A stretch of DNA of 64,000 nucleotides from Geobacter sp. AOG2 (lineage in GTDB: Bacteria > Desulfobacterota > Desulfuromonadia > Geobacterales > Pseudopelobacteraceae). The stretch lies in the NCBI RefSeq assembly GCF_019972295.1, contig NZ_BLJA01000001.1, forward strand, positions 2,608,158 to 2,672,157, read 5' to 3'. Below the pieces are notes generated by a model, which was not told the origin of the DNA, did not search any database, and saw only the letters and a list, made by a program, of their open reading frames with translations. Shown piece by piece: positions 3,385-51,344 of the stretch (its first letter is position 1; each line of letters begins with the position of its first letter). The position numbers and the translations under genes are program-made.

Positions 3385-3536
3385 GCACAGAGGGGGGCAT
3401 GGCCGCGGGGAAACGCGTGAAGTGCGGATTTGTAGGAATGGTGCGGAAACGGGAAGAAAAAGGCATGCGCGGGGGCCTTTGACGCGGGACATCGCCCCCT
3501 GTCAAGGGGCGACCCGGCGGGGCCGCCCGCCTGGCT

Positions 3537-4073
3537 TCAGGGTTTGCGAACCAACTTCTCCAGGGGAAACCCCTGTTTGGCTACCAGGTCAAGGATATGC
3601 TGGTAAACATCCTTCTCCATCACCGGTTTGCGGGCCAGCACCCAGAGGTACTTCCGATTGGGCGAACCGACCACGGCGTACTCGTATGACGGCCCCAGAT
3701 CGATGATCCAGTAGTCTGTCCTGAACGGCCAGAAAAAACTTACCTTCAAGCGGGCGTTGCCCTGGGGATCGACCGACCAGGCCCGCCCCTTCGCTTCACG
3801 CCGGCTGTTATCCTTTTCATCGACGCAACGGTTGATCACTTCGACCTCACCGCTGGGTAACAAGGTATATGTGGCGGTACTTCCCCGGCATCCTTCCTGG
3901 AAGAAGTGATCGAACCGCGCAATTTCATACCAGACCCCCATATAGCGCGCCAGATCGACGCTCTGGACCGGCGAAACCGGAAGGGGGGCGGTTGCCGCGT
4001 TGCCGGCCCCGGCAAACAGGACCGCGGCCATAATCAAAATCGTGGTGATTTCAGTTCGTAACGATGAATTCAT
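3537..4073 (-). CDS. Lipocalin family protein (Blc-like)
   Basis: A 178-residue secreted lipocalin. An N-terminal signal peptide ends near A-G-A-G-N-A-A-T-A; there is no lipobox cysteine, so unlike E. coli Blc it is probably periplasmic and soluble rather than a lipoprotein. The lipocalin signature is clear at about residues 43-60 (Y-M-G-V-W-Y-E-I-A-R-F-D-H-F-F-Q), followed by Y-T-L, V-I-N-R-C, F-W-P-F-R-x-D-Y-W-I-I and the late Y-x-W-V-L-A-R-K-P. Two cysteines may form the family disulfide. It lies 64 bases from the ChaN-like gene on the same strand and may be co-transcribed with it. Confidence 0.88.
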   Translation of the reverse strand: MNSSLRTEITTILIMAAVLFAGAGNAATAPLPVSPVQSVDLARYMGVWYEIARFDHFFQEGCRGSTATYTLLPSGEVEVINRCVDEKDNSRREAKGRAWSVDPQGNARLKVSFFWPFRTDYWIIDLGPSYEYAVVGSPNRKYLWVLARKPVMEKDVYQHILDLVAKQGFPLEKLVRKP

Positions 4074-4137
4074 TTTCCGGCTTTCGCAGTCGATTTCGGT
4101 CGGTTTTCACCAGGTGTCGGCAGTTGCCGCACAAACA

Positions 4138-4989
4138 CTAATTGCCTCTGGGCATGAGGTAGTCCACGTCATCGGCGGTTGGCTTCAGCCAGTCGAATTC
4201 GACCAGGTCCGGCAGCACCACCTTATACGTGGCGCCTCCGAAGTCCTTGAGACATTCCGGCGCCCCGTTCTTGATGGCATGCCACGTTCCCGCGATCACC
4301 ACGACCTTGCGCTCGGGGAATTCGCGCCGGTACTTGACGATGGTGTAGGCCATGGTGCTGTTGCGAAGCGCCTGCGCCTCTTCGAAATTGACGGCGGGAA
4401 CCGGCGGTGGGGCGTTGCCGAACGCCTGTTGCCTGATGCGCCTCAGGTATTCGGCCTGGCGGGGGGGCAAAGTCCAGCGGAGCCCCGGCGGCAATTCGCT
4501 CCTGTCGCTCTCGCTGAGCGACGCGGCGCCCCGCCTTACCACGTTGGCTATGATCCTTTTCGGTACGTTAAGGGCAATCAGGGGGATCTGATTGTCGCGG
4601 CAAAAGAGAAACAGGTCCCGGTACAGGTTCCAGCCGTAGGACCAATTCCTGGCGTAGATGGCGGCAAACTCTTTCTCGTCCAATTTCCCCCTGGTCCAGT
4701 CGTCGAGATACCTTTGGTTATCCGTGGTGAACATCTCGAGCCCCAGGGCCAATCGGGGGTTTTTGGCATAAAGCGCCCGTATGATTTCCAGCTGTTTGGC
4801 GTGGACACGGCTGTCGTCGTGGGTATCGCCGATAAAGACCACCTGGGATCGCCCGATGTCTTCCACGAAGGTACCGAAAGCCACCGGGGCTTTGCCGCTC
4901 ATACCGATAATTTCCATGGCGGCATGCGCACCGGCGCCCGTGGAAAGCAGCATACCTGCCACCAAGATAAAGGCGAGGAATGTTTTCAC
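4138..4989 (-). CDS. ChaN-like family protein (DUF399)
   Basis: A 283-residue exported protein with a signal peptide (cleavage near A-H-A-A). The body matches the ChaN/DUF399 family: V-V-F-I-G-D-T-H-D-D near the start, G-L-E-M-F in the middle and V-V-V-I-A-G-T-W-H-A near the end. The conserved His, Asp and Glu of this fold are present. Campylobacter ChaN binds heme and is linked to iron uptake; that role here is extrapolation. No lipobox cysteine is seen. A lipocalin gene follows closely on the same strand. Confidence 0.82.
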   Translation of the reverse strand: MKTFLAFILVAGMLLSTGAGAHAAMEIIGMSGKAPVAFGTFVEDIGRSQVVFIGDTHDDSRVHAKQLEIIRALYAKNPRLALGLEMFTTDNQRYLDDWTRGKLDEKEFAAIYARNWSYGWNLYRDLFLFCRDNQIPLIALNVPKRIIANVVRRGAASLSESDRSELPPGLRWTLPPRQAEYLRRIRQQAFGNAPPPVPAVNFEEAQALRNSTMAYTIVKYRREFPERKVVVIAGTWHAIKNGAPECLKDFGGATYKVVLPDLVEFDWLKPTADDVDYLMPRGN

Positions 4990-5087
4990 TGAATCTCCTT
5001 CGTGGATAAGATAACCGCGACTATAGCAGGCATGGTCCGGGTTGGAAACCCGATTGCGGAAACAGCTATTTTCCGCTCCGGGTCAAA

Positions 5088-5118
5088 CAGAGGCCGCCCC
5101 CATCCGGAGCGGCCTCTG
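5088..5118 (-). terminator. Hairpin after the 42-residue membrane protein
   Basis: CAGAGGCCGC (5088-5097) and GCGGCCTCTG (5109-5118) form a 10-bp stem. On the minus strand it lies 43 bases past the stop of the small gene at 5161-5289 and is followed only by TTTG, so it is a weak intrinsic terminator. Confidence 0.5.
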
Positions 5119-5160
5119 CGCCACGTACTTTGAACTGCCGGTGCACCTGGCCGGACAGGA

Positions 5161-5289
5161 CTAATCGTCGCCTTCGTCTCCAGCCATTAAATCGAAATGA
5201 TGCGAATCGACATGTTTGAGGTGCCTTCCCCATACCGATTCGAGAAGCAAAACCGTTCCGCCGATAAAGAGTAACATGAAGATCACCAT
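5161..5289 (-). CDS. Small single-span membrane protein (42 residues)
   Basis: A 42-codon ORF starts M-V-I-F-M-L-L-F-I-G-G-T-V-L-L-L-E-S-V-W and ends H-F-D-L-M-A-G-D-E-G-D-D. A purine-rich GGAAAGGGGGAAG lies just upstream of the ATG, and a hairpin follows the stop. Residues 2-16 form one membrane span; the tail carries H-L-K-H-V-D-S-H-H, then a strongly acidic end. The clean RBS and terminator make it more than a chance ORF. Function unknown; the His-rich stretch could bind metal. Confidence 0.55.
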   Translation of the reverse strand: MVIFMLLFIGGTVLLLESVWGRHLKHVDSHHFDLMAGDEGDD

Positions 5290-5532
5290 GGTTCTTCCCC
5301 CTTTCCCGGTATAAGCTTTCCCCCTTTTTTTACATTATAATCCGTCTGAAGGGGGTGAACGCAAATAAAATGTGCTGACGCCCCTTGAAAGCAGACATGA
5401 GGCGTTTGGAAAAACGATGCCGAGGAGAAGAAGGACGATTCCCGGAGCGCCTCACACGCCTCATCGCCAGGGGTCTGATCAAGCCTACAGCCTCGGGCCG
5501 CAGGGAACTAAAAACAGGCAAACCCGTCCGGA

Positions 5533-5548
5533 TGTGACGGCCGTCACA
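5533..5548. promoter_or_regulatory. Perfect CRP-type palindrome
   Basis: TGTGACGGCCGTCACA is a perfect 16-bp palindrome identical to the CRP consensus TGTGA-N6-TCACA. It lies 46 bases before the GEMM-Ib aptamer. TATTAT at 5549-5554 directly abuts it and could be a -10 box, which would put the site in a repressing position. If the start is nearer the aptamer, the site would lie at an activating distance. Confidence 0.6.
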
Positions 5549-5593
5549 TATTATCTGCGCAGGAAAAGGTAAGGTGAGATCATAAAACAGAAG

Positions 5594-5676
5594 GATATCG
5601 ACAATACTAAACCATCCGCGAGGATGGGACGGAAAGCCCAAGGGTCTCACCGAGACAGCCGGGTCGCCGAAATATC
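5594..5676 (+). ncRNA. GEMM-Ib riboswitch aptamer (3',3'-cGAMP class)
   Basis: The sequence contains the GEMM-I core: ACAATACTAAACCATCCGCG, GGATGGGACGGAAAGCC, GGGTCTCACCGAGACAGCC and GGGTCGCCG. From memory it is nearly base-for-base like the Geobacter Gs1761 (pgcA) aptamer. At the ligand-contacting position equivalent to G20 of the Vc2 c-di-GMP riboswitch it has A (the A of AATACTAAACC), the feature of the GEMM-Ib subclass that prefers 3',3'-cGAMP. P1 is formed by GATATCG (5594-5600) with CGAAATATC (5668-5676). The downstream gene is at 5741. Confidence 0.9.
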
Positions 5677-5705
5677 GAGATGATATTGGCGACCCGGCTT
5701 TTTTT
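5657..5705 (+). terminator. Expression-platform terminator of the GEMM-Ib riboswitch
   Basis: AGCCGGGTCGCC (5657-5668) pairs with GGCGACCCGGCT (5688-5699), AATATC with GATATT inside it, followed by seven T. The 5' strand of this hairpin uses the 3' strand of aptamer stem P1 and the 3' aptamer domain. Ligand binding that holds P1 together would therefore prevent termination, implying an ON switch. Confidence 0.85.
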
Positions 5706-5740
5706 GTGCCCACAGCAGGGAAGAAGGGAAGGTAGAACGT

Positions 5741-6097
5741 ATGCGAGCAAAGCAGCACCGTCGCCCAACACCCTGCCTGTTCATGGCCGCCGCACTGGGT
5801 ACCGCACTGTGCCTGTTTGCCTCCGCCTTGCCCGCCCGAGCCGAAAACCTGGTCCATTTAAGGTTGGCCGATCCGCAACAACTCAACCAATCTCACCCGC
5901 AGGCCCGTTCCACCAAACAGACCCGTCTGGCCCTGGACGATGACGGTAACGTCATGGTCCGCTTCAACAGGATGTCGGTCACCTTCATCTACGACGCGGG
6001 CGGCAGCCCCCAGGACAACCGGATGCGACCGAATGCTCCCCACCAGGAGGTCGCCTGCCTTGGGGGCCTCAGCGTCAAACTCGGTGTTTCCTTTTAG
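5741..6097 (+). CDS. Small secreted protein of unknown function under GEMM-Ib control
   Basis: 118 residues, ATG start with AAGGGAAGG upstream. An N-terminal signal peptide (basic start, hydrophobic core at about 13-29, cleavage after A-R-A) is followed by an 85-residue polar domain that I do not recognise. It has no CxxCH, so it is not a cytochrome, unlike many GEMM-Ib targets in Geobacter. It ends in a beta-like stretch with C-terminal Phe (V-K-L-G-V-S-F), somewhat like outer-membrane proteins but far too short for a barrel. One cysteine. Direct riboswitch control implies it belongs to the cGAMP regulon, possibly cell-surface or electron-transfer related. Confidence 0.75.
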   Translation: MRAKQHRRPTPCLFMAAALGTALCLFASALPARAENLVHLRLADPQQLNQSHPQARSTKQTRLALDDDGNVMVRFNRMSVTFIYDAGGSPQDNRMRPNAPHQEVACLGGLSVKLGVSF

Positions 6098-6423
6098 CCG
6101 TTCACCATCCTCCCCTGCAAGATCAAATCGGGTACGACGACGAAAAAGCGCACCTCGTTGACAGGCTGTTGCATAACGCCTTGGGGGAGCTCATTGGGGT
6201 AATGTGGGCGGAACATTGTGACGGATGTGAAACATTTGTGAACATAATGTGCAATTGTGCTTTGGTTTCGGGTCTTTTGTCGTAATTGCCTAGAACCTTT
6301 TCGCCGGGTAGTGTATGCTAACCATATGATGATGATACTAAAATACAGAGTGCGCGGCGTTTTTGCCGCCTGTTCCACCGGTGCGCACATTGGGGACCGG
6401 GGGGCGCCGAAAAGCGCCGATGC
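6098..6423. other. 326-base intergenic region, no gene seen
   Basis: I see no supported ORF here. It contains two similar segments ACATTGTGA (6212-6220) and ACATTTGTGA further on, and an AT-rich stretch with repeated ATGATG ahead of the acyltransferase gene. I cannot assign a promoter with confidence. Confidence 0.4.
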
Positions 6424-7341
6424 GTGCTGAAACATATCTTCTGGGCCATTCAAACGGCCGTCATATATTGCCTCACCCTGGCAGCCGCTCTCCTGCCCGC
6501 CTCTCTGACCTGCCGCCTGGGGGCGCTGGCGGGACTTCTCATCCCCTATATCGTCCCCAAACGCCGCGCCGTCATCATCGACAACATCAACCATTCCCTC
6601 CCGTTCATGAAGGCCCACCGGCTTTGGAATTCGCCCTGCGACGACGCACCGGGGCTCGCACGGGAAACATTCAAGAACCTGGGCAGATCCCTGATGGAAA
6701 TCTGCCGGCTGTACCACGGCCGGGGGGTGGAGGTCATCGATAATATCGAGATACGCGGTTGGGCAAACTACGAGGCGGCCAGGGCAAAGGGGAAGGGCCT
6801 GATCTTTCTGAGCGGCCATTGCGGCAACTGGGAACTCATGTCCCTGACGCTCAGCAGCCTCTTCGGCAAAGAGGTTTCCGGGGTCGCCCGCCGCCAGAAC
6901 AACCCCTATCTCAACAGCATGGTCGAGCGGATGCGCTCACGCTTCAACAGCAGGCTGATCTACAAGCAAGGTGCATTGAAGGGCATTCTCGCGGCGTTGC
7001 GCAACCGGGAGATGGTCGGCATCCTGGCCGACCAGGCGGTCTTCCCCGAGGAGGGGTACCTGATCGATGTCCTGGGCCGCAAGGCCTGGGGCTCCAAGGC
7101 CCCGGTAATCATCGCCAAAAAGAGCGGCGTACCGCTCGTCCCGGTATTCCTCTATCGCGAGGGCGAACGGCATGTGCTCTCCTTTTACCCGGAACACCTC
7201 TTCAGCGGCGACATGAGCGATGAGGGCATCCAGGAGGATACCCAGGCCCTGTCGCGCTATGTGGAGGATTTCGTGGTGTCGCACCCGACCCAGTGGTACT
7301 GGGTGCATCGGCGCTGGAAGCGGGCCGGGGCCGCCGCGTAA
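6424..7341 (+). CDS. Lipid A biosynthesis (LpxL/HtrB-type) acyltransferase
   Basis: A 305-residue lysophospholipid-acyltransferase family protein, likely transferring a secondary acyl chain to Kdo2-lipid A at the inner membrane. One N-terminal hydrophobic segment (about 8-40) is followed by the catalytic H-C-G-N-W-E (the HX4D/E motif) near residue 138, then D-Q-A-V and P-V-F-L-Y-R-E-G-x-x-H, and the late Q-W-Y-W-V-H-R-R-W-K, all typical of LpxL/LpxM. The GTG at 6424 is the most likely start; the ATG four bases earlier is in another frame. Which secondary acyl position it modifies cannot be told. Confidence 0.88.
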   Translation: MLKHIFWAIQTAVIYCLTLAAALLPASLTCRLGALAGLLIPYIVPKRRAVIIDNINHSLPFMKAHRLWNSPCDDAPGLARETFKNLGRSLMEICRLYHGRGVEVIDNIEIRGWANYEAARAKGKGLIFLSGHCGNWELMSLTLSSLFGKEVSGVARRQNNPYLNSMVERMRSRFNSRLIYKQGALKGILAALRNREMVGILADQAVFPEEGYLIDVLGRKAWGSKAPVIIAKKSGVPLVPVFLYREGERHVLSFYPEHLFSGDMSDEGIQEDTQALSRYVEDFVVSHPTQWYWVHRRWKRAGAAA

Positions 7342-7430
7342 CGACAAGATCGCCCCGGAGGGGAAACGATCAATCAACCGGCGGCTTCCCTCCCTTCACC
7401 GCAGGCTCGACGCCCCACCCTGAAAAAAAA

Positions 7431-7458
7431 AGGCTGCCGGAAAATTTCCGGCAGCCTT
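7431..7458. terminator. Bidirectional terminator between the acyltransferase and actP
   Basis: AGGCTGCCGGAAA and TTTCCGGCAGCCT form a perfect stem flanked by a run of A on the left and TTTT on the right. It can stop both the rightward acyltransferase and the leftward actP transcript. Confidence 0.9.
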
Positions 7459-7482
7459 TTGCATGAAGAATACCGCCTAAAC

Positions 7483-9195
7483 TCAGTGAGAAGCAGCCTT
7501 CTCGGCACCCAGGCCGGTTTCGGCACGAAGCATTTGGGCTTTGAACGCCTCACGCTCTTTCTGTGCGCTCGCGCTGCTGTCGGTTACCGACACAAAATAC
7601 GCAACGATGAGCACCAGCGGCAGGACGACGAAGGTCGGGAAGTCATAGGGGAAGATTGCCGGCCCCATGCCGAGTATCTTGGTCCATACGGTCGGGCCGA
7701 CGATCAGCAGGCCGATGGAACCGAAGATGCCGGTATAGCCACCCATCACGGCGCCGCGGGTGGTCAACCCCTTCCAGAAGACGGAAAGCACCAGAATGGG
7801 GAAGTTGGTGCACGCGGCGATGGAGAAGGTCAGCGCCACGATGTAGGCAACGTTCTGCTTCTCGAAGAGTATGCCAAGGAGGATGGAGAGGACACCGAAG
7901 CCGATAACGCAAATCTTGGAGACGAAGACTTCCGTTTTCTCGTCCCCTTTCCCCTTCTTGATCACGTTTGCATAGATGTCGTGGGACAAGGCCGAAACAC
8001 CGGCCATGGTCAAACCGGAAACGACGGCGAGGATGGTTGCGAAGGCAACCGCCGCGATGAAGCCGAGGAAGAAGTCACCGCCGATGGCGTGGGACAGGTA
8101 CACGGCCGGCATGTTGCCGCCGCCCTTGAGGTTGAGGATGTTCTTGGTGATGTCGACTACGTACTGCGGGTTGTTGGCAACCATCACGATGGCGCCGAAA
8201 CCGATGATGAACGTGAGTATGTAGAAGTAGCCGATGAAGCAGGTCGAGTACAGAACGGATTTACGCGCCGCCTTGGAGTCGGTAACGGTGAAGAAGCGCA
8301 TCAGGATGTGGGGCAGACCGGCGGTACCGAAAATCAGCGTGAGACCCAACGAGATCGACTCGATCGGGTTGGCCTTGGCTCCGATTTTTACCACTGACTG
8401 CATGATCGCCATATGTTTGGGATGCAGGGCGACGGCGTCGGAGAACAGTTTCGCGAAGCTGAAGCCCTCGTGGACCATGACGCCTAACGCCATCAGGGTC
8501 GCACCGCCCAGCAGCAGGCCGGCCTTGATGATCTGCACCCAGGTGGTGGCCTTCATGCCCCCGAACGTTACGTAGAGGGTGATCAGTATGCCGACGATGA
8601 CGATGGAGACCGTATAGGAAATCTGCGGGACCAAGGTGTGCAGCAACTGCCCGGCGCCCACCAGCTGGCCGATCAGATACCAGACGACGACGATCAGTGC
8701 GCCGATGGCCGCCATGGTACGCACCGGACCCTGCTGGAGCCGGAACGTGACGACGTCGGCATAGGTGTACTTGCCCAGGTTGCGGAGCCTTTCGGCGACC
8801 AGGAACAGGATGATCGGCCACCCGACGAGCCAGCCGACGGAGAAGATCAGGCCGTAGAAGCCGTTGAAGTAAACCAGGGCGGCGATACCCAGGAACGAGG
8901 CGGCGGACATATAGTCGCCGGCCATGGCCAAGCCGTTCTGGAAGGCGGTGACGCCGCGGCCGGCGGCATAGAAGTCGGCGGCGGTCTTGGTCCGTTTCGC
9001 AGCCCAGTACGTGATCACCAGGGTAATGGCAACGAAGACGACGAACATGCTGATCGCATGCCAGTTAACCGGGGGCGGCGCCGCCGGTGCGGCGGGGGCG
9101 GGACCGGAATCGACGGTCATTGCCTGGGCAATATTGGCGACAAACAACGCGGCAGAGGACATCAGGGAGGTGAGGATGGTTTTCGCTGTTTTCAT
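7483..9195 (-). CDS. actP: Cation/acetate symporter
   Basis: A 570-residue sodium:solute symporter (SSS family) with about 13 membrane helices, preceded by a cleavable-looking N-terminal segment and an Ala/Pro linker (residues 31-43). Signature stretches include [21 protein letters not shown] and [14 protein letters not shown], which match ActP acetate permeases. It overlaps the upstream DUF485 gene by 4 bases, the usual yjcH-actP arrangement. An IclR regulator follows upstream on the same strand. Electrogenic acetate import is the expected role. Confidence 0.93.
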
Positions 9196-14468: not shown

Positions 14469-15476
14469 TCATCGGGGCAGTTCCGTATCCGGCTCCCCGC
14501 GGAACGTCAGGTAGAGGAACAGCAGGGACGGCACCAGGATGACGGTGCCGACCACGAGGATGATGAAATAGGCGACGAGCGTGGCGTGGGGCGCCGCCGC
14601 TGCCGCCAGGGCAAGCTGCCCCACGAGGAAGTCCGGGAACACGGCCGCCGCGAAGCCGGCGAGCGTCATGGCGACGGTCCCCGCGGCACAGACCTGAGCC
14701 CACAGGAACCGACGCCGCCAGAGAAGTATTTGGGTCGTGATGCCGAAGATCACGGCCAATGAGACGCACAAGGCCGCCTCCGAGCCCATGAGGCGCCCGG
14801 CGAAGACGGGGGCCTCCATCATGGCGACGGGGACCTCCGCGGTGGTCAGGATGCCGAGCGTCCAGGCGGCGATCATCCCCCGCAGCCTGAAATCCCCCTG
14901 CAATTCCCCCGTAGTGCGCACCGTCATGTAGATCGGCGCCAGGTAGGCGCAGACGGCCATCCCCACCAGCCCTCCCACCAGGGTGAACGGGCTGAGCCAG
15001 AACCACGGCGCCGCATGCGCCTGCCCGCCGACGAGTATGATCTTCCCGGTGACCGATGCGGTCACCGCCATGCCCAGGGCGAAGGGGGTCAGGATGCTCG
15101 AAATGGCGAAGATGCCGGCCACGAAGGGGATGTGTTCCCCCCTCTGGCTGCCGAAGTGGCGGAAGGCAAAGGCCGCTCCCCGGAAGTTGATACCGATCAG
15201 GGCGACCACGATGGGGACCAAAAGTACGGTAAAGAGGGCGCTGAATCCCGTGGGAAAGCAGGTGAACAGCGTCACCACCACGAAGATGAGCCAGACGTGA
15301 TTGGTCTCCCACACCGGTCCGATGGCGTGAAAGAGGCTGTCCCGCTGCTGCCGGGCGCGGGGACCGGAGGCAAGGGCGGTCCAGATGCCGCCGCCGAAGT
15401 CGGCGCCGCCGAAAACCGCGTACATGACCAGCCCGAGGAAAACGGCCCCGCCCGCCAGGTTCTCAAGAGTTCCCAT
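14469..15476 (-). CDS. cydB: Cytochrome bd oxidase subunit II
   Basis: 335 residues, about eight membrane helices, opening with the family sequence F-L-G-L-V-M-Y-A-V-F-G-G-A-D-F-G-G-G-I-W. It overlaps cydA by 14 bases. With CydA it forms the quinol:O2 oxidoreductase of the inner membrane. In a strict or nearly strict anaerobe its job is usually oxygen removal. No cydX or cydCD gene is visible nearby. Confidence 0.92.
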   Translation of the reverse strand: MGTLENLAGGAVFLGLVMYAVFGGADFGGGIWTALASGPRARQQRDSLFHAIGPVWETNHVWLIFVVVTLFTCFPTGFSALFTVLLVPIVVALIGINFRGAAFAFRHFGSQRGEHIPFVAGIFAISSILTPFALGMAVTASVTGKIILVGGQAHAAPWFWLSPFTLVGGLVGMAVCAYLAPIYMTVRTTGELQGDFRLRGMIAAWTLGILTTAEVPVAMMEAPVFAGRLMGSEAALCVSLAVIFGITTQILLWRRRFLWAQVCAAGTVAMTLAGFAAAVFPDFLVGQLALAAAAAPHATLVAYFIILVVGTVILVPSLLFLYLTFRGEPDTELPR

Positions 15477-41307: not shown

Positions 41308-41405
41308 GGAAGCACGTCGGTCGCTGGTGGGCCGCCCGGTCTTCAAAACCGGTGGGGGGGATGAGAAATCTCCCCGGTGGGTTCGATTCCCATGTGCTTC
41401 CGCCA
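41308..41405 (+). tRNA. selC: tRNA-Sec (anticodon UCA)
   Basis: 98 bases including encoded CCA. An 8-bp acceptor stem GGAAGCAC/GTGCTTCC plus discriminator G, the extended extra arm, anticodon TCA in GGTCTTCAAAACC, and T-loop TTCGATT identify selenocysteine tRNA. It supplies Sec for the formate dehydrogenase at 25.8 kb. Its last 20 bases are repeated at 45183, marking an integrated element. Confidence 0.96.
41386..41405. other. Attachment site (attL) inside selC
   Basis: ATTCCCATGTGCTTCCGCCA, the 3' end of tRNA-Sec, recurs at 45183-45201 in the same orientation with one T missing. tRNA 3' ends are classical integrase targets, and the genes between the copies look mobile. Confidence 0.75.
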
Positions 41406-41437
41406 CAGACTATCCGGCACAGTCCGATGCAGTATTT

Positions 41438-41466
41438 AAACCCACTGGAAATAGTGGGTTTTTTAT
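41438..41466 (+). terminator. Terminator after tRNA-Sec
   Basis: AAACCCACT and AGTGGGTTT form a stem with a short GGAAAT loop, followed by TTTATTG. It lies just inside the left end of the integrated element. Confidence 0.8.
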
Positions 41467-41492
41467 TGTCTGTTTGAATCGCCACCAGTAAT

Positions 41493-42365
41493 CTAGACAC
41501 TTCCTGCTTTCAATAAATGCTGTCTTTCAAACTCAACCGGTGACAGGTCGTCATTGTAGCCATGACGCCGGATTGGATTGTAGAACATTTCGATGCAGTT
41601 GAATATATCCTGCCGTGCTTCTTCCCGATCTTTGTATGTCTTCCGCTTGATTCGTTCCCTTTTCAATAGCTGGAAAAAGCTTTCTGCAACTGCGTTGTCG
41701 TAGCAGTTACCCCTCCGGCTCATGCTGCATACCATGTTGTGTGACTTCAAGAAATGCTGCCAGTCACTGCTGGTGTACTGGCTACCTTGATCTGAATGGA
41801 TTATTACCTGGTTCTTGGGCTTGCGCCGCCAGACAGCCATCAACAAGGCATTGAGAACAAGATCGACGTGCATCTTCGGCTGCATCGACCATCCGACAAC
41901 CTGTCGTGAGAACAGGTCGATCACAATAGCCAGGAACAACCACCCCTCATAGGTGCGAATGTAGGTAATGTCCGTGACCCAGGCTTGGTTGGGCTGCTGA
42001 ACATCAAAATCCTGCTGAAGGTGATTCTCGGCCAGGATGGCGACGCTGCCGCCTTTGTAGCGCGGTTTCCGGTAGCCGATCTGGGCCTTGAGCCCTTCCT
42101 GCTTCATCAGGCGGGCAACACGGTTCCTGCCACAGGTCTCGCCAATTTCGCGCAGGTCCTTGTGGATCTTGCGGTAGCCATAGACGCAGCCGCTTTCCAA
42201 CCAGAACTGCTTGATGAGTCCCAACAAACGCTCGTCATCCTTCTGCCGTGCTGACTTGGGCTGGTTGAGCCAAGCGTAGTAGCCACTGCGATGAATCCTC
42301 AGCATGTGGCAAAGGTTACGGATGGCAAACTCATCCTGGTGCGCCCGGATAAAGGCATACTTCAC
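41493..42365 (-). CDS. IS3-family transposase OrfB (DDE integrase domain)
   Basis: 290 residues with an HTH_21-type segment (Y-G-Y-R-K-I-H-K-D-L) and an rve/DDE core: V-T-D-I-T-Y-I, I-H-S-D-Q-G-S-Q-Y-T-S, and the Glu in N-A-V-A-E-S-F-F-Q. The GTG start overlaps the orfA stop (GTGA). Its stop codon touches the left terminal repeat of the IS. The active enzyme is expected as an OrfAB fusion through -1 frameshifting. Confidence 0.95.
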   Translation of the reverse strand: MKYAFIRAHQDEFAIRNLCHMLRIHRSGYYAWLNQPKSARQKDDERLLGLIKQFWLESGCVYGYRKIHKDLREIGETCGRNRVARLMKQEGLKAQIGYRKPRYKGGSVAILAENHLQQDFDVQQPNQAWVTDITYIRTYEGWLFLAIVIDLFSRQVVGWSMQPKMHVDLVLNALLMAVWRRKPKNQVIIHSDQGSQYTSSDWQHFLKSHNMVCSMSRRGNCYDNAVAESFFQLLKRERIKRKTYKDREEARQDIFNCIEMFYNPIRRHGYNDDLSPVEFERQHLLKAGSV

Positions 42366-42682
42366 TTGGACTCTCTTGCGAAGTATGCCGTTGCCTTTTT
42401 TAAGATATCTCGCTCTTCCGTGACGCGTTTAAGCTCAGCTTTGAGGCGTCTGATCTCGGTCTGCTGATCTTCAACGTAGGCGGCTTGCTGGGGGCCGTGG
42501 CCATACTTCTTGAGCCAGGCATAAAGGCTGAATGCGGTTACACCAAGTCGACTGGCAACATCAGCTACTGAATGGCCGCGCTCGGTGATTTGTTTGATTG
42601 CTTCTTGCTTGAATTCGTCGGTGTAACGCTTGTCGCTCATGGTGACCTCCTGAAGCCATCTTTTATAACTCAGGAGTGTCTA
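41494..42682 (-). mobile_element. IS3-family insertion sequence (about 1.19 kb)
   Basis: Two overlapping reading frames (orfA, orfB) lie between ends TAGACACTTCCTG (41494) and, reversed, TAGACACTCCTGAG (42682). The IR match is short with one indel, and I could not identify a clear target duplication, so exact ends are approximate. The copy looks intact: both frames are open and the frameshift signal is present. Confidence 0.85.
42362..42640 (-). CDS. IS3-family OrfA (helix-turn-helix)
   Basis: 92 residues with an HTH_Tnp_1 domain (Y-T-D-E-F-K-Q-E-A-I-K-Q, S-V-A-D-V-A-S-R-L-G-V) and a C-terminal leucine-zipper-like coiled coil (I-R-R-L-K-A-E-L-K-R-V-T-E-E-R-D-I-L-K-K). The minus strand holds A-AAA-AAG at 42395-42401 near its end, a slippery heptamer of the IS3 -1 frameshift type, inside L-K-K. 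Confidence 0.95.
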   Translation of the reverse strand: MSDKRYTDEFKQEAIKQITERGHSVADVASRLGVTAFSLYAWLKKYGHGPQQAAYVEDQQTEIRRLKAELKRVTEERDILKKATAYFARESK

Positions 42683-42711
42683 CGATTCTAGGGGCGATTC
42701 AGGTATTAACG

Positions 42712-42888
42712 ATGCCAGAACCGAAACATCTTGTAATTAAGTCCGCCGATCTCCCCATACCTCTGGAAGTGGTAGGCCCTAATGGAGAGCAGGAATTCTA
42801 TCTCTTACAACCTGCGACAAAGCGTTTTGGCGCATATCTCAATAAGATCGCCGAGCCGTTGCAAAAAATGCTTTTCGGCAAGAAATAG
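42712..42888 (+). CDS. Small hypothetical protein, possibly cut by the IS
   Basis: 58 residues from M-P-E-P-K-H-L-V, ending F-G-K-K. The frame stays open back to a GTG at 42676 inside the IS end, so an original upstream portion may have been lost through IS insertion. No domain recognised. No clear RBS at 42712. Confidence 0.45.
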   Translation: MPEPKHLVIKSADLPIPLEVVGPNGEQEFYLLQPATKRFGAYLNKIAEPLQKMLFGKK

Positions 42889-42998
42889 TATTTAAAAAAC
42901 ACATATTATATAACCTCGCCCTGTAGCAAGCATACCAAACGGAACAGCACAGCCAGGGGCAATCACTCAAATGCGCACACGCGCAGAAAGGATTGTTC

Positions 42999-44243
42999 AT
43001 GGCTATTTTTGTATCTGGAGATCACGCGCCCATTCAACCCGCCGGCTCGCCAGGGTTTGCCGGCTCGGCCGGCATCCCTGGCGGGACGGCGGAACCTTCC
43101 TCAAGCATGGCGTTATCTGTAACACGCCATGCGCAAAATCCACTATCAGACAGTTTCGAGTTTCTTGTCTGCGGGATTGACTCCCTTGATCTGGGTCTTT
43201 ATATCCTGTGGAACTACAAATTCAGTGACTTCATTTCAAAGCTGGATGAAAAGAAACAGGATGCCATGAGGGCAAACGGCGTCTTGGATCACAATCCCCA
43301 TGAACGGCAGTTCATCCATCTTGCCGCCGGTAAGCCGCCAAATTACCGTTATCATCTTCAATTCCCCGAATATCATCTTTATCTATCCATCACCGAAAAG
43401 GCCGAAGGTTCCCCGAATGGGTATCTCTCCGTCAATTCGGAAGCATTATGGAAGTACGGTCTCCCCTATGTCCTGGAAACCCTGGAAATCGACCTGTATC
43501 ATTTCGGCGGCACGATAGAACGCATACAGCCAAGCCGTGTTGATATGTGCGCCGATTACCGCATACCCGACGGGCTTACTCTGCCCTTTCTTGAAGCTCA
43601 CCGGGTATCGAGGGCCAAAGAAACAACCTTCCACCTTCGCCATGATGTTCTTGAAACCTATTATGTCGGTTCCCCCTCCGCTCCTGTCCGTCTGCGTATC
43701 TATGACAAGGACAAGGAGATTCACGCCAAGGGCACAAAATTCTGGTTCGCGGAAATTTGGAACACTGACGACATAGCCAAAGTCTGGCGGGTAGAATTCC
43801 AGATGCGGCGGCCATTCCTCCGGCAATTCGGTATCAACAGCCTGGAAGACCTCTGGCAGAAAATCGGCGGGGTGTGGGCATATCTGACAGAGGAATGGAT
43901 TTCCTTACGCCTCCCGGACAACGACAGGACGGCAAGAAGGTCTGTCCTTCCCTGGTGGGAACATGTCCAGAAAGCCGGTAATGCCTACGATTCGGCAGGT
44001 GGTGTGCGGCGTTCTGGTCAAAGTGACATGCTCGCCCCGGTGGAATGGTATGTTTCCCACGTTGCCGGGTGCCTCGCGTCCGTTGCGGCCCGGCTCAATA
44101 TTGACGACTGTACTGAGGCGGTCAAGGTGCTTGGCGACAATCTGGAAGGACACTGGCGACATAAGGACTTTAAGAGCGAAGTGCAAAAACGTTCAATTCG
44201 TTTGGGCCGAATCAGTTGCGATCAGGAAGGGGGCGGTCTATAA
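42999..44243 (+). CDS. Rolling-circle-type replication initiator (Rep_trans/phage RstA-like)
   Basis: 414 residues, ATG at 42999 with AAAGGA upstream. It resembles the phage/plasmid replication-initiation factor group: I-D-S-L-D-L-G near the start, R-V-D-M-C-A-D-Y, R-L-R-I-Y-D-K-D-K-E-I-H and a W-R-V-E-F-Q-M-R-R motif, with F-R/L and W-rich helices to the C-terminus. The N-terminal 40 residues are low-complexity (Gly/Pro/Ser). It overlaps the AlpA-like gene by one base. This gene, together with the att repeats, suggests an integrative element that replicates by a rolling circle or a filamentous-phage satellite. Confidence 0.72.
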   Translation: MAIFVSGDHAPIQPAGSPGFAGSAGIPGGTAEPSSSMALSVTRHAQNPLSDSFEFLVCGIDSLDLGLYILWNYKFSDFISKLDEKKQDAMRANGVLDHNPHERQFIHLAAGKPPNYRYHLQFPEYHLYLSITEKAEGSPNGYLSVNSEALWKYGLPYVLETLEIDLYHFGGTIERIQPSRVDMCADYRIPDGLTLPFLEAHRVSRAKETTFHLRHDVLETYYVGSPSAPVRLRIYDKDKEIHAKGTKFWFAEIWNTDDIAKVWRVEFQMRRPFLRQFGINSLEDLWQKIGGVWAYLTEEWISLRLPDNDRTARRSVLPWWEHVQKAGNAYDSAGGVRRSGQSDMLAPVEWYVSHVAGCLASVAARLNIDDCTEAVKVLGDNLEGHWRHKDFKSEVQKRSIRLGRISCDQEGGGL

Positions 44244-44473
44244 TGCAAACAAAAAATAACTGCAACCCGCTCCCTGAAACAGGCCTTGTGAGGCTGTCGC
44301 AAATTCTTGGGAACAAGAAAAAAGGGATACCGCCTATCATACCCGTGAGCAAATCGACGTGGTGGGCTGGCGTGAAGTCGGGTCGCTACCCAAAGCCAAT
44401 AAAGCTGGGAGAGCGGACGACCTGCTGGAATGTCCTTGATATTCGTCAGCTTATTAACCAGTCAGAAACATAA
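44243..44473 (+). CDS. AlpA-like excisionase/regulator
   Basis: 76 residues whose ATG shares one base with the Rep stop (TAATG). The MerR/AlpA-type winged helix is seen in V-R-L-S-Q-I-L, I-P-V-S-K-S-T-W-W-A-G-V-K-S-G-R-Y-P-K-P-I-K-L-G-E-R-T-T-C-W. Such proteins act as excision factors or activators of integrases in prophages and islands. Here it is coupled to Rep, but no integrase is seen in the element. Confidence 0.8.
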   Translation: MQTKNNCNPLPETGLVRLSQILGNKKKGIPPIIPVSKSTWWAGVKSGRYPKPIKLGERTTCWNVLDIRQLINQSET

Positions 44474-44498
44474 TCATTTATCATACGAGTTAAAGGCG

Positions 44499-45020
44499 AT
44501 GAAAATGAAACGAATAACTGATGTCCCAAACACCTCAAAAGAGATGCAGAAATTATACGACAAATTCTGGGACGAATCTGGAGACTTTAGAAAGTTGCTC
44601 CCTGAAATTGATGCTTTTCTCCAGAAATACCCGAATTACGTCGAGGCATTAGTTCTCAAGGCTAGATCATTGATGGCGATAGGCCGAAACAACGAAGCTC
44701 TGAAGTGTCTAAAAATGGCAAAACGTGCCGATAGATGGCGTTTAATTGGCCGTTTTGATGAAGCTGAGATTTACTTAGATAAAAAAAAGCACGAGGAATC
44801 AGTCAAAGTCTATGTAGAGGCAGTTAAAGCATATGCTGTGGAGTTGAAAAATGGCATGGATAGTTACCTGCTTTGCTGCAATTCGGAAAGCAAGGAGAAG
44901 CTAAAAGAGCTTACTCAGCAGGCTCTGGCCGACTTCTTCGCTCAAGACGAAGAGAACAAACCATTTGAAAAACTGCTCGGCAATTTCATGAAAATGAAGG
45001 ACGAGTTTCGTGACAACTAA
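44499..45020 (+). CDS. TPR-like protein carried by the element
   Basis: 173 residues, helical throughout, with tetratricopeptide-like spacing in F-L-Q-K-Y-P-N-Y-V-E-A-L-V-L-K-A-R-S-L-M-A and the following N-N-E-A-L-K-C-L-K-M-A-K. The base composition is much more AT-rich than the host genes, a sign of transfer. It may be element cargo. No enzyme motif. Start chosen at 44499 after AAAGGCG; the ATG at 44505 is also possible. Confidence 0.6.
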   Translation: MKMKRITDVPNTSKEMQKLYDKFWDESGDFRKLLPEIDAFLQKYPNYVEALVLKARSLMAIGRNNEALKCLKMAKRADRWRLIGRFDEAEIYLDKKKHEESVKVYVEAVKAYAVELKNGMDSYLLCCNSESKEKLKELTQQALADFFAQDEENKPFEKLLGNFMKMKDEFRDN

Positions 45021-45182
45021 AATCAACGTATAACAGGGCAGCGGCAAGCGGTCTCCGCTTCGCTTTGTCGTTACGCCCCCACGACGTTGAAAGGGCGGAA
45101 TTGTTTGGGTAACTTTCCGGGTAAGTACAAAAATCTTATTTAGTTTTTATTTTAAATTACGAAGCGTTACTTTGATTTTTGT

Positions 45183-45201
45183 ATTCCCATGTGCTCCGCC
45201 A
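45183..45201. other. Attachment site (attR) of the selC element
   Basis: ATTCCCATGTGCTCCGCCA matches the 3' end of tRNA-Sec (41386-41405) except for one missing T. No tRNA precedes it, so it is the far junction of an element of about 3.8 kb. Confidence 0.75.
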
Positions 45202-45254
45202 ATTTCTTCAAGCGCCGGGAAACCGTGACGCCCGTTGCTGCGTAAGATCCGTCC

Positions 45255-48713: not shown

Positions 48714-50696
48714 TCAGGCAACCTGGCGACGCCCCGATACCAGCGGCGGAACATCCGGAACATCGCGCCGCGGAGATAACTCCGGCTGAACCGGCGCAGC
48801 CGAGGTTTCAAGGTGCGGTTCCATGACCGAGCAGAGCGTGATGGACGCCGCCTCCAGCACCCCCAGGATCTCTTCCGGCCGCCGGATGGCCGCGGAGAGT
48901 CGGATCATGCTTTCCCGGATGGCGCCGGAAGCTGCAAGAGGAATTCCCTCTTCCATCTCCCGTTCCCGCAGCCGATGCAGACACCTGCCGATGGCCAGGG
49001 TCGCGAGCCCCCCCTCCACGATGGCGCCGAGCCCCCGGTTCAACTTCCCGGCGGTGACGAGCATGCCCAGCACCCGATGGTGAGTCCGGGCGCGGCGATT
49101 CTCCACCGTCCGCAGCGAATCCGTGGCGGCCATGACGATCAGGTCGCTGACGATGGCGAGCAACAGGGAGCGCAGACGCCGGGACGGGTCGATGGGGAAC
49201 AGGAAACGAAACGACAGGATGGCGACGCCGATCCCGCCGAGGGCGGCGAACGCGCCCGCCGCAAAGGCGCCGGGGGGCGGCACCTCCGGCAGGCCGGGCT
49301 GCATGATGAACAGGAAGAAGAGCATGGCGTCCATGGCTCCCTGGGCCGTGCGCCGGTGAGACAGGGCCATGATGCCGGCCATCATGACCGGGATGGTGAC
49401 GACCCCTTGCAGGAGCGGGTCGCTCGCCCCCGGCAGGATGACCAGACGGCAAAGAAGCGCCGCCGCGACGCCGACCGAGGCCCCGGCGAAGACGTGGGTA
49501 AGTTTGGCGACCGGGTGCTCGTGAGTGGAAAAGATACTGACCATGATCGAGGCGGCCATGAGCATCAGCGGGCCTTCCTCCCACCCGGCCGTCAGCCAGA
49601 GCAGCCCCACGGCGCCTATGGCGCATGCGGCGCGCAGCGCCGACCTGCCGGCTTCCTGCCAATCCCGGTTACGGATGTACTGGTTTGTCGCCGGCCGCTC
49701 CGGGCCATGGGCTGTGGTATCCCACTCGTCGATGACGAGGTGCAGCGCATCGGCGAGTTCCCCCATGGCCTCGGCCAGAAGCGGCAGATGGGCAGCAGCC
49801 CCGGCCGTAAACGCCTCCAGCCCGGCGGTGGCCTGTCTGGCCGATTCGCGCTGTTCCAGCTGCCGCGCCGCATCATCCAGGAGCCGGGCGAGGGTTTCCC
49901 GCCACGGGGCCCGGCCCACCCCCTGCAGGTGCAGGTAATCACCGGCCAGTTTGCCGGCTTCCAGCAAGGAGAGAAGCGAGACGATCAGATTCCTGATGCG
50001 GCGTTTCCGTTTCCTGAGATCGAGGGAACCGGCCCACGCGGCATCCATATCCCCCTCGATGGCGGCGATCTCCACGAAGATATCCTGCCGCAGCGAGACG
50101 AGATCTTCCTTCCTGTCCCCGCGCAGGACCAGCGCCACCCATTCCAGATCCGCCCCGGCGACCTTGGTCAGCCGGTCCAGCAATTCGCGCTTGCCGCGGC
50201 GATGGGTGAAAAACAGGGTCACCGTGGTGGAGACGACGATCCCGATGACGATGCAGGCGATCCGTCCGAAGACCAGGTCGTGCAGGTGCGGCGGGCTGTT
50301 GTGCCCGGCCATGGCAATGACCGCGCCGGTGCAGCCGGCGATGAGGGCTCCGTAGGAACGGAGACCGTACAACAGGTTGCCGGCGCCGACGCACCCCGCC
50401 AGCCAGAGGGCGAGCAGGATGGTGAGCATGGCCGGCGACGACGCGGCGTGGAGCATCATCATACCCGCAATCGACCCCATGGCCGTGCCGACGAGGCGGA
50501 AAAAACTCTTTTCCAACAACAGCCCGCGGGTCGGCTGGATAACTATGAGCGCGGTCATGGCCGCCCAATAGGGGCATTCCAGGTGCAGGTGAACGGCTAC
50601 CGCCAGGCTGGCCAGGGCGGCAATGGTCCCCCGGGCCGCCAGGAGGAAGTTTGGCCTCTGGCGGCGCGCCAGACGCCGCAGATAATGGCGCCTCAT
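48714..50696 (-). CDS. FUSC-family transporter (aromatic acid exporter type)
   Basis: 660 residues with two groups of membrane helices (about 20-165 and 350-500), each ending in the FUSC/DUF-type pattern P-Y-W-A-A-M-T-A-L-I-V-I-Q-P-T and R-x-x-G-T-A-M-G-S, separated by cytoplasmic domains. Related proteins include AaeB and the YccS/YhfK group. It overlaps the MarR gene by 4 bases, so the regulator probably controls it in response to an aromatic or antimicrobial compound. No membrane-fusion (AaeA) gene is seen. Confidence 0.85.
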   Translation of the reverse strand: MRRHYLRRLARRQRPNFLLAARGTIAALASLAVAVHLHLECPYWAAMTALIVIQPTRGLLLEKSFFRLVGTAMGSIAGMMMLHAASSPAMLTILLALWLAGCVGAGNLLYGLRSYGALIAGCTGAVIAMAGHNSPPHLHDLVFGRIACIVIGIVVSTTVTLFFTHRRGKRELLDRLTKVAGADLEWVALVLRGDRKEDLVSLRQDIFVEIAAIEGDMDAAWAGSLDLRKRKRRIRNLIVSLLSLLEAGKLAGDYLHLQGVGRAPWRETLARLLDDAARQLEQRESARQATAGLEAFTAGAAAHLPLLAEAMGELADALHLVIDEWDTTAHGPERPATNQYIRNRDWQEAGRSALRAACAIGAVGLLWLTAGWEEGPLMLMAASIMVSIFSTHEHPVAKLTHVFAGASVGVAAALLCRLVILPGASDPLLQGVVTIPVMMAGIMALSHRRTAQGAMDAMLFFLFIMQPGLPEVPPPGAFAAGAFAALGGIGVAILSFRFLFPIDPSRRLRSLLLAIVSDLIVMAATDSLRTVENRRARTHHRVLGMLVTAGKLNRGLGAIVEGGLATLAIGRCLHRLREREMEEGIPLAASGAIRESMIRLSAAIRRPEEILGVLEAASITLCSVMEPHLETSAAPVQPELSPRRDVPDVPPLVSGRRQVA

Positions 50697-51157
50697 CGTT
50701 TCACCCGCTTCCGCACGGTATTCACGGCCGACTCCAGGGAGGCGATGAACGTACCGAAAGCGGCGATCTCCTCATCGCTGTACGGGGCGAGAATCTCATT
50801 GTCCAGAATGGTCAGGGTTTTCCGTACCCGGGCGACGGCCGCCTGTCCCTCGGGCGTCAGGAGGAGCAGTTTTGCGCGACGGTCGGTGGCGTCCTCCGAC
50901 CGCCGGACCAGCCCTTTTGCCACGAGGGCATCGAGGAGGCGGACCAGGGAGGGGCCTTCGATGCCGACGGAGGCGGCCAGGTCCTTTTGGCGGACCCCCT
51001 CCCCCAGCAGGTAAAGATGCAGGAGCGGACGCCACGTGGCATCCGTCAGTCCGGCGGAATGGAAGGTGGCGTCCAGGACCTGGCGCCAGTGGCGGGTCAG
51101 AAGGCCAAGATGGAAAAAGAGATTGCTGCGGTCAATAGTCGAAGATGAATTATACAT
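50693..51157 (-). CDS. MarR family regulator
   Basis: 154 residues with the MarR winged helix: W-R-P-L-L-H-L-Y, R-Q-K-D-L-A-A-S-V-G-I-E-G-P-S-L-V-R-L-L-D-A-L-V-A-K-G-L-V-R-R and the wing D-R-R-A-K-L-L-L-L-T-P-E-G. It is the first gene of an operon with the FUSC exporter. No Shine-Dalgarno sequence is seen before the ATG at 51157, which lies inside a palindrome, so the real start may be somewhat later. Confidence 0.9.
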   Translation of the reverse strand: MYNSSSTIDRSNLFFHLGLLTRHWRQVLDATFHSAGLTDATWRPLLHLYLLGEGVRQKDLAASVGIEGPSLVRLLDALVAKGLVRRSEDATDRRAKLLLLTPEGQAAVARVRKTLTILDNEILAPYSDEEIAAFGTFIASLESAVNTVRKRVKR

Positions 51158-51168
51158 ATAAGTATAAT
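51149..51168. promoter_or_regulatory. Candidate MarR operator
   Basis: ATTATAC-ATATAA-GTATAAT has perfect 7-bp inverted arms and an A/T-only centre, typical of MarR-type operators. It covers the annotated start codon of marR and the AT-rich promoter region just before it, and would give autoregulation. Confidence 0.6.
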
Positions 51169-51344
51169 TAGCATACTATCTAATATCATGTCACCTGTTT
51201 TTTTCCAATCATCCGGGACCGGCTGGTTCCATGGGACGGAGAGGCAACATGAATCCCGGAGGTCCCGGAAAGATATACCCTTGCAGACGGACGGAAAATA
51301 GTATATTTGGAGATAGATACAACAGCCCTGAAGGAGACCATGCC

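Follow-up and report, generated by a model that had tools for sequence, protein, structure and literature searches.

Locus and question

The selC locus of Geobacter sp. AOG2 carries a 3.8-kb insert with a rolling-circle Rep gene, an AlpA-type gene and no integrase, and the question is whether such an insert belongs to a kind of element that does without an integrase or is what is left of an element that once encoded its own. The window, that is, the whole stretch of DNA analysed, comprises 64,000 nucleotides with a G+C content of 60% (GCF_019972295.1, contig NZ_BLJA01000001.1, positions 2,608,158 to 2,672,157 of the forward strand). The insert lies between the tRNA-Sec gene and a repeat of the 3' end of that gene, and its features are as follows.

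41308–41405, forward: tRNA-Sec gene (selC), the integration target (ARAGORN); attL core at 41386–41405
41406–41474, forward: left end of the element, containing the string TTTTTTATTGTC and a hairpin that resembles a terminator
41475–42701, reverse: IS3-family insertion sequence, 1227 bp (NF033516, E 4e-108 for tnpB)
41493–42365, reverse: IS3 tnpB, DDE transposase (profile scan)
42362–42640, reverse: IS3 tnpA (profile scan)
42712–42888, forward: 58-aa open reading frame that probably belongs to the element (related sequences directly precede a Rep or Rep-like gene elsewhere)
42993–44243, forward: Rep, rolling-circle initiator with the Rep_trans/RepDE fold (clade profile and fold); start more likely the ATG at 42999
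44243–44473, forward: AlpA-type regulator or excisionase (PF05930, E 4.7e-4, 20.4 bits, cut-off 21)
44490–45086, forward: cargo unit with integron-cassette-like borders (G003 homology ends at or near them)
44499–45020, forward: TPR-like protein (several TPR models, best E 1.6e-5); start ATG 44499 or 44505
45087–45182, forward: right end of the element, with arm-type repeats GGGTAAC at 45107 and GGGTAAG at 45119
45183–45201, forward: attR core (19 of 20 bases of attL)

The initial annotation had described several of these features correctly: the last 20 bases of tRNA-Sec are repeated at 45183 with one T absent, AlpA is coupled to Rep by one base common to the stop of the one and the start of the other, and the TPR gene is AT-rich (41% G+C).

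Boundaries and relatives at selC

The insert was compared with the selC regions of two congeners (G003 and G002), of G005 and of G098, a genome of another family. Sequence comparison shows that the attL core is common to selC in G003, G002 and G005. The T-less core is found again at the right junctions of G002 and of G098, so the missing T is not decay of the window copy; in G003 both T's are absent. The right end is 91% identical to that of G003 and 88% identical to that of G002, and positions 45177–45203 are identical in all 27 bases to positions 14499–14525 of the G098 locus (L219). The left end also occurs in G003 and, more distantly, in G098, and is absent downstream of selC in G005 and G002. 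An empty selC site, which had been proposed as a check, is present in G005, and this site, taken with the tRNA 3'-end sequence that is directly repeated at the two borders of the insert, marks it as a tRNA-targeting element. Direct alignment of the window with the congeners covers no more than about 90 bp upstream of selC, so that the notion of the same selC copy rests on a short stretch; the wider selC synteny of the window differs from that of G003, G002 and G005.

The selC element of G003 carries the same Rep-AlpA pair (91% DNA identity over 43117–44479) and no insertion sequence. Between selC and Rep it has four GGGTAAC/G repeats and a P4-type integrase gene cut down to its first 26 codons, which are 65% identical to residues 1–26 of the G098 integrase (E 9e-9) and stop at a deletion junction inside rep. 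At selC of G002 a P4-type integrase survives only in its last 61 codons (84% identity to G098 over 58); the right end there resembles that of the window, and the empty-site flank is repeated beyond the far side of the element. The 8.7-kb element of G098 has, directly after selC, an intact P4-type integrase of 413 aa (PF13356, PF22022 and PF00589), together with an AlpA that is 66% identical to that of the window over 68 aa (E 1e-26); a window-type Rep was not matched in it at E 1e-4, and a Toprim/AAA protein is found there instead. No genome was found in which window-type Rep, AlpA and an intact integrase stand together at selC. Window-type AlpA and a P4-type integrase adjoin in five of the six other window-type AlpA loci read (L122, L124, L174, L178 and L219; AlpA identity 66–88%), the integrase of L122 being split into two open reading frames; none was found at the sixth, L123, in a 10.8-kb contig.

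Taken together, these observations indicate, with a probability of about 85%, that the insert is an immobilised tRNA-targeting integrative element that has lost its own P4-type integrase. What the window holds is damaged and does not represent a kind that does without an integrase: an integrase of its own, missing from the window, survives as remnants in G003 and G002 and intact in G098.

Loss of the integrase

The absence of a tyrosine or serine recombinase, already noted in the initial annotation, was confirmed, the only integrase-like gene among the scanned open reading frames being the transposase of the insertion sequence (rve domain). The overlap of tnpA and tnpB, the DDE transposase and the terminal inverted repeats place this sequence in the IS3 family; its ends are TGAATCGCC, and the genome holds one full copy and one 350-bp match at 80%. 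It occupies the position where arm-type repeats and a P4-type integrase stand in G003 and G098, which fits the earlier suggestion that the insertion sequence replaced the integrase in the window. As a general cause of integrase loss it is nevertheless ruled out, given that the integrases of G003 and G002 are reduced to fragments with no insertion sequence there. In the window the GGGTAAC-type left arm repeats are gone, and no integrase remnant was detected in 41406–42993 (tblastn with three P4-type integrases, best E 0.42). A 3-bp target duplication is missing as well (GTT before, GGT after), as would be expected if adjacent DNA had been deleted.

The other earlier suggestion was that of a satellite, moved in trans by an integrase encoded by another element or a phage. 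The state of the insert would suit it in part: the arm repeats of the right end and both att cores are intact, as are Rep and AlpA, which were under purifying selection, and all three copies found in the genus are without an intact integrase, but the left arm repeats have been lost in the window. The AOG2 genome has three phage-type integrases elsewhere, and it retains two integrases with the P4-type arm domain, at tRNA-Pro and at 1288 kb. The tRNA-Pro integrase adjoins an AlpA 48% identical to that of the window, although its own identity to the intact selC integrase is only 57%, and that of the 1288-kb integrase is 23%. Since the broken pieces in two congeners and the intact gene of G098 show that the selC elements had an integrase of their own, the satellite reading finds no support and is considered unlikely.

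The Rep protein and its family

The assignment of Rep as a rolling-circle-type protein was borne out by the clade profile and by the fold. Taken alone, the Rep of the window gives a weak Rep_trans match (E 0.0017, 18.4 bits against a Pfam cut-off of 29.6), while 30 of the 45 members of its clade match this profile at E ≤ 0.01. The Rep profile matched RepDE and Gst Rep in the PDB (E 3e-6 to 6e-6), and the predicted fold superposes on them with Z scores of 12.6–13.7 and rmsd values of 3.9–4.6 over 215–223 residues (4cij, Z 13.7); the model has low confidence for residues 1–49. Matches at Z 7–8 are mainly TATA-binding proteins, and may mark only a shared arrangement. Residues Y237, K239 and E242 are invariant across the 45 sequences, and Y237 is presumably the catalytic tyrosine. 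Between the window and G003, dN is 0.031 and dS 0.446, a ratio of 0.07 that implies that both Reps descend from working copies. In L124, L179 and L157, tblastn with the 58-aa open reading frame gave matches (E 5e-5, 7e-5 and 0.005, respectively) that lie upstream of Rep or of a gene resembling it.

Scans of the genome collection in which the Rep of the window was the only query gave no relatives, and alignment A1 was required to recover them. The clade, at 35–51% identity, extends over Geobacterales, Syntrophales and Planctomycetota; a tyrosine integrase lies near Rep in 20 of the 24 adequately covered loci, and a tRNA gene lies alongside in 16. More distant relatives (26–29% identity) accompany integrases in Paenibacillus and Brevibacillus. 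Among plasmids and phages, 14 plasmid and 5 phage records were matched, all below 60% identity; with only such distant matches, a recent plasmid insertion is ruled out as the source of Rep. The mini-element type that the initial annotation had envisaged, a Rep/AlpA pair with a TPR gene, has to be redrawn: Rep, Xis/AlpA and an integrase at a tRNA gene constitute a real family, but the TPR gene, which occurs in 3 of 277 genomes with AOG2 itself counted, does not belong to it.

Rep_trans proteins serve in the replication of filamentous phages as well, and the insert could be an inovirus relic or inovirus satellite whose remaining phage genes were lost. Two named Inoviridae proteins do stand among the best BFVD fold matches (E 7e-13 and 5e-9), and Rep gives a weak Phage_CRI match and a match to the Rep of Cellulophaga phage Omtje (E 7e-4). 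The family context argues in the other direction, given that only three viral contigs encode a relative (26–38% identity), members of the close clade reside on genome contigs and frequently adjoin a tRNA gene, and no morphogenesis gene was noticed by eye beside Rep in the loci inspected, which makes an inovirus relic or satellite very improbable. An ordinary, vertically inherited and non-mobile unit of the selC region, finally, would account for two genomes of the genus having the block at selC, but can be dismissed in view of the empty site in G005, the duplicated flank in G002, the different cargo and the higher identity of rep-alpA than of a nearby chromosomal segment (80%). The two findings that the initial annotation had named as fatal to mobility, a chromosomal, non-mobile Rep family and the same block at selC in all relatives without the repeat, both came out for mobility, as the Rep family is mobile and G005 is empty.

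The cargo unit

The cargo unit starts after ACGAG^TT, ends before G^TTGAAAG and contains the TPR gene and a palindrome (45022–45086). The cargo of G003 is different, with cassette-like borders and palindromes in both genomes, and homologues with cassette borders occur in G023 and G093; the right end of G002 has no such border. These features are suggestive of integron cassettes inserted at one point. An exact 8-mer R-box complement is present in the G023 and G093 homologues and absent in the window. Five genomes of the genus gave no integron integrase above the cut-off, and one is found in 57 of 141 genomes of the order.

Of two home-made attC scans, the first called no site in the window or in L041, and it called few in the arrays that accompany genuine integron integrases; the second detected the repeated sites of the L245 and L247 arrays, and gave five scattered matches in the window, none at the cargo, and none in L041. 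Neither scan called 45022–45093 or the G003 sites. Shuffle tests of the palindromes gave z values of −3.2 for the window, −2.9 and −1.5 for the two G003 sites, −4.0 for G023 and −0.1 for G093, and the site of a real integron array gave −1.0, so that folding energy does not discriminate cassette sites.

The TPR gene (searched as 44502–45020) had no match in PADLOC or plasmids, and the 14.0 and 8.1 kb read around its other two copies contain neither a Rep nor an AlpA nor an integrase of the types described above. In relatives with intact integrases the cargo includes likely anti-phage genes in several cases; the cargo genes compared with defence systems were picked by eye, and those of L138 and L046 gave no defence match.

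Proposed history and significance

In the history proposed here for the stranded element, a P4-type tyrosine integrase (arm-binding domain PF13356) would have inserted it at the selC 3' end by means of GGGTAAC-type arm sites, which lay at the left and the right end of the element, and the AlpA protein would have served as excisionase. Once the element was excised, the Rep_trans-type initiator would nick the circle and replicate it by the rolling-circle mode, which would maintain the free form and may also start transfer by a helper. In the lineage of the window, the insertion of the IS3 element and an adjacent deletion would have taken out the left arm sites and the integrase gene, leaving Rep, AlpA and the right end intact, and the element is now probably stranded. 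Such stranding is well illustrated at this site, where three genomes of one genus lost the selC integrase in three different ways.

A wider proposal, put forward tentatively and at somewhat less than even odds, is that the insert is a decayed representative of a superfamily of small chromosomal elements that has not been described, which would combine a RepDE-like initiator, an AlpA/HTH_17 excisionase and an exchangeable tyrosine integrase, reside in tRNA genes of Geobacterales, Syntrophales and Planctomycetota, and have a slot for anti-phage genes; its selC lineage would swap integron cassettes at a constant position, located between alpA and the att site. No description of this Rep-AlpA-integrase variant was found in the literature. 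If the cassette reading is true, genomes that have no integron integrase can accommodate integron cassettes in a fixed slot of an element inserted at a tRNA gene.

Comparison with known systems

An integron gene cassette is a gene bounded by G^TTRRRY and an attC site with complementary R boxes, and clusters of attC sites without an integrase are a recognised category beside it. The cargo resembles cassettes in its G^TT borders, the palindrome after the gene and the swapping at one point, and differs from them in the lack of an integron integrase above the cut-off in the five genomes of the genus and in that its attC is putative. Residues 56–337 of Rep share the fold of RepDE of S. aureus and of the G. 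stearothermophilus Rep (PDB 4cwc, 4cwe, 4cij), with only 14–19% identity, an extra C-terminal helical part and, here, a chromosomal element.

P4 is characterised by its P4-type integrase, AlpA and tRNA 3'-end target, and the hallmarks of P4-like satellites are the P4 replicase and capsid-hijack genes. None of these hallmark genes was found among the scanned genes of the insert, in which a rolling-circle Rep takes the place of the P4 replicase. The integrase type, AlpA and target are the points of likeness with P4-like phage satellites, the subject of PMC8628076. PICMI satellites, as defined in PMC10803314, are likewise very small elements with int and alpA, and require a primase (DUF3987/DUF5906) and a fis site; the insert has neither int nor primase, carries Rep_trans and is located at selC.

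A parallel is found in the Firmicutes IMEs with Rep_trans/MobT proteins, such as IME_Sag2603_tRNAlys, which, according to PMC5704250, also have a tyrosine integrase, insert at the 3' ends of genes, including tRNA genes, and encode a Rep_trans-family initiator, whereas the hosts here are Geobacterales, Syntrophales and Planctomycetota and the selC lineage has a P4-type integrase and AlpA. Rolling-circle initiators on tRNA-integrated elements are already known from Firmicutes IMEs and ICEs, and the same kind of module is now seen in these three groups with P4-type or other integrases, which would extend the range over which such elements are known and would supply Rep/AlpA/Int sets suited to tests in laboratory hosts.

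Structure of the Element and Probable Loss of Its Integrase

The element at selC, the tRNA-Sec gene, is bounded as the initial annotation had proposed: bases 41386–41405, the 3' end of the gene, occur again at 45183–45201 with one T fewer. The genome is a single contig of 3.92 Mb, of which the window covers 64 kb.

Features of the element and its site
41308–41405, tRNA-Sec (ARAGORN)
41475–42701, IS3-family element
Between the IS3-family element and Rep, ORF of 58 aa
42993–44243, Rep, putative rolling-circle initiator
44243–44473, AlpA, putative excisionase/regulator
Ending at 45020, TPR gene
45107 (GGGTAAC) and 45119 (GGGTAAG), arm-type repeats in the non-coding right end

The coupling of AlpA to Rep through one shared base (the AlpA start overlaps the Rep stop at 44243) and the AT-richness of the TPR gene (G+C 41%, against 60% in the window) are borne out, and neither a tyrosine nor a serine recombinase was found among the genes of the element. 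Most probably it is a copy of a tRNA-Sec element that has decayed and become stranded.

The empty site to be sought in relatives exists in G005, a genome of the same genus, where selC runs directly into the chromosomal flank; a 166-bp part of this flank occurs twice in its congener G002, once downstream of selC and once beyond the right junction. In a third congener, G003, Rep and AlpA, with 91% DNA identity to window 43117–44479, adjoin a selC, and the right end is likewise 91% identical, while the IS is absent and the cargo differs (coordinates on loci L041 and L062 refer to their reverse complements). A nearby chromosomal segment (window 48803–51203) is only 80% identical to G003, so the element either has a younger common descent than the segment or was acquired separately. 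Upstream of selC the alignment of the window with G003, G002 and G005 is limited to approximately 90 bp, which indicates that the region around selC has undergone rearrangement.

What G003 retains between selC and Rep is a set of four GGGTAAC/G repeats and the 5'-terminal 26 codons of an integrase gene, which correspond to the start of P4-type integrases (tyrosine integrases with a PF13356 arm-binding domain; 69% identity to locus L178, 65% to G098, a genome of another family). This fragment runs straight into sequence homologous to an internal part of rep; the deletion also removed the rep start, and the first remaining in-frame start codon corresponds to Rep residue 81. In G002, 61 codons from the 3' end of a P4-type integrase gene survive, together with the right end. 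Given these remnants, and none found in the window, the integrase was lost in three ways in the three copies found in the genus.

A search for the right end in 117 genomes gave six positives: the window's own genome, G002 and G003, with partial matches in G098, G115 (core and one arm repeat; no tRNA-Sec in the 18 kb read) and G076 (28 bases). In G098, the sequence after tRNA-Sec begins with a left end that is terminator-like and resembles that of the window; GGGTAAC repeats come next, and an intact integrase of 413 aa carrying PF13356, PF22022 and PF00589. This element also encodes a Toprim/AAA protein and an AlpA 66% identical to that of the window (L219 8838–9041), and the window Rep found no match in it at E 1e-4; its junction, 8.7 kb from selC, is identical to window 45177–45203 at 27 of 27 bases. 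The proposal that the IS replaced the integrase holds as regards position: the window IS starts right where the left end closes, and at that point G003 and G098 continue into arm repeats and integrase. We infer that the IS made the deletion on the left side; no target duplication flanks this IS, of which the genome contains one full copy.

tRNA-Sec Copies

Of 39 genomes queried with selC, 36 gave a match. Four of the six genomes of the genus have two or three tRNA-Sec genes (two matches in G003 and the window's genome, three in G001 and G005), and one match was obtained in G002 and G004. The loci concerned are window 41308–41405, L064 8104–8201, L066 5529 and 8020, and L067, L068 and L069. One of the copies may act as a dispensable target for integration. 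In G001, two tRNA-Sec genes lie 2.5 kb apart beside a gene reading like selB, and one selC (L063 10277–10369) is short of a few 3'-end bases (TGTGCGCCA), resembling a junction that has degraded or the scar left by a departed element.

The Rep Protein and Its Wider Family

Alone, the window Rep scores 18.4 bits against Pfam Rep_trans, under the 29.6-bit cut-off; Rep_trans is matched by 30 of 45 clade members at E ≤ 0.01, and a profile of all 45 matches PDB entries 4cwe, 4cwc and 4cij (E 3e-6 to 6e-6). The same entries rank first in Foldseek (E 9e-12 to 1.5e-9) with the AlphaFold model (mean pLDDT 86.9, low for residues 1–49), and VIA-align gives Z 13.7, 13.3 and 12.6 (rmsd 3.9–4.6 over 215–223 residues). 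Y237, K239, E242, R266 and E268 are invariant among the 45 sequences. Between the window and G003, Rep shows dN 0.031 and dS 0.446 (1119 bases), and the two alpA genes have 9 differences in 228 bases.

Rep relatives occur in 17 of 57 genomes, the window's own included. An alignment search gave 68 loci in named genomes, with MAG contigs accounting for many: those at 35–51% identity belong to Geobacterales, Syntrophales, other Desulfobacterota-type bins, Planctomycetota and one Sumerlaeota bin, and more distant ones to Paenibacillus, Brevibacillus, Alphaproteobacteria and others. Context was counted in 37 loci (L148–L184), 36 of which have a Rep ORF of at least 250 aa (L168 was left out) and 24 of these at least 5 kb downstream; integrases were called with our own seed profiles (at least 40 bits, within 6 kb).

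Gene context of Rep (adequately covered loci; all loci)
Tyrosine integrase within 6 kb: 20/24; 25/36
tRNA gene ≤400 bp from the integrase: 16/24; 19/36
AlpA/Xis of two seed kinds: 12/24; 14/36

The usual order is a 315-aa or ribbon-helix-helix gene, Rep, sometimes a 460–500-aa gene, HTH_17/AlpA, integrase and tRNA 3' end. A P4-type integrase is present at five of the six other loci read with window-type AlpA (L122, split; L124; L174; L178; L219) and was not found in the 10.8 kb of the sixth, L123. L122, L123 and L124 carry, by eye, different Rep-like proteins, unmatched by the window Rep at E 1e-4, and elements at tRNA-Gly have a different integrase and Xis. The window's own genome holds three further integrase-bearing elements with Rep-like genes (by eye) and AlpA/Xis-like genes.

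Further elements on the same contig
L135, 1524 kb, tRNA-Pro(ggg), P4-type integrase, AlpA 48% identical to the window's
L136, 1288 kb, integrase-bearing
L137, 1333 kb, tRNA-Gly(ccc), integrase-bearing

Cargo

The suggestion that Rep/AlpA with TPR cargo is a type of its own holds for the Rep-integrase-tRNA family but not for the TPR gene, found in 3 of 277 genomes (own counted; the two homologues are 65–66% identical). The slot after alpA holds different genes in the window and G003, and homology ends at or near G^TT points. The right border is common to both (GACG^TTGAAAGGGCGG); the left-hand shared stretch stops at ATTT, 1 base short of G^TTGAAC in G003 and 10 short of G^TTAAAG in the window. 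A palindrome follows every cargo gene in the slot, weaker at the second G003 site. Both TPR homologues (G023, G093) start at G^TTGTACG, with the complement CGTACAAC 2–4 bases past the stop and G^TT 55–66 bases on, a layout matching that of integron cassettes. Several results speak against this reading: the exact R-box-type complement is missing from the window copy, two attC scans made no call at the window cargo, the folding energy of the palindromes did not discriminate cassette sites, and the G002 right end lacks a G^TT cargo border. On balance, we lean slightly towards the cargo of the window and G003 being integron cassettes. After alpA in L122 and L124, the stretch of about 100 bases or more where the right end is expected showed no gene.

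The cassette-like units with a TPR homologue are L257 reverse complement 6619–8545 (G023), which also encodes two proteins of 165 aa and 233 aa, the latter protease-like, and adjoins a gene reading like thiC, and L258 7396–8008 (G093), which adjoins an SMC-like gene. Among 141 genomes of the order, 57 have an integron integrase above the curated cut-off, many with open frames of 450–500 aa that exceed the model in length.

Cargo genes upstream of Rep or a Rep-like gene, picked by eye, were compared with defence models; five elements gave matches, and those of L046 and L138 gave none.

Defence-model matches
L044, PDC-M38A/AbiLi-like AAA_15
L048, TIR-TM
L049, DUF4062-TPR, partly PDC-S60
L124, cytosine methyltransferase with Vsr
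L137, weak mad8 match (E 5e-6)

The element of genome G006 (L124 reverse complement 2300–6829) has an intact P4-type integrase and, between it and the Rep-like gene, the cytosine methyltransferase, Vsr and a further protein that matches NO VEIN weakly.

Comparison with Known Elements

The portion available of PMC3403914, on Geobacter lovleyi, makes no mention of an element of this kind, and no description of a Rep-AlpA-integrase family was found in titles and abstract openings, a coverage mostly without subscription journals, so any novelty of the family is stated within that limit. The window locus by itself is ordinary; the surrounding element family is the part that deserves follow-up. The definition of PICMI is found in part of PMC10803314. 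According to the sections available of PMC5704250, Rep_trans/MobT proteins are found on IMEs and ICEs of Firmicutes, the only division for which prevalence studies of IME families then existed.
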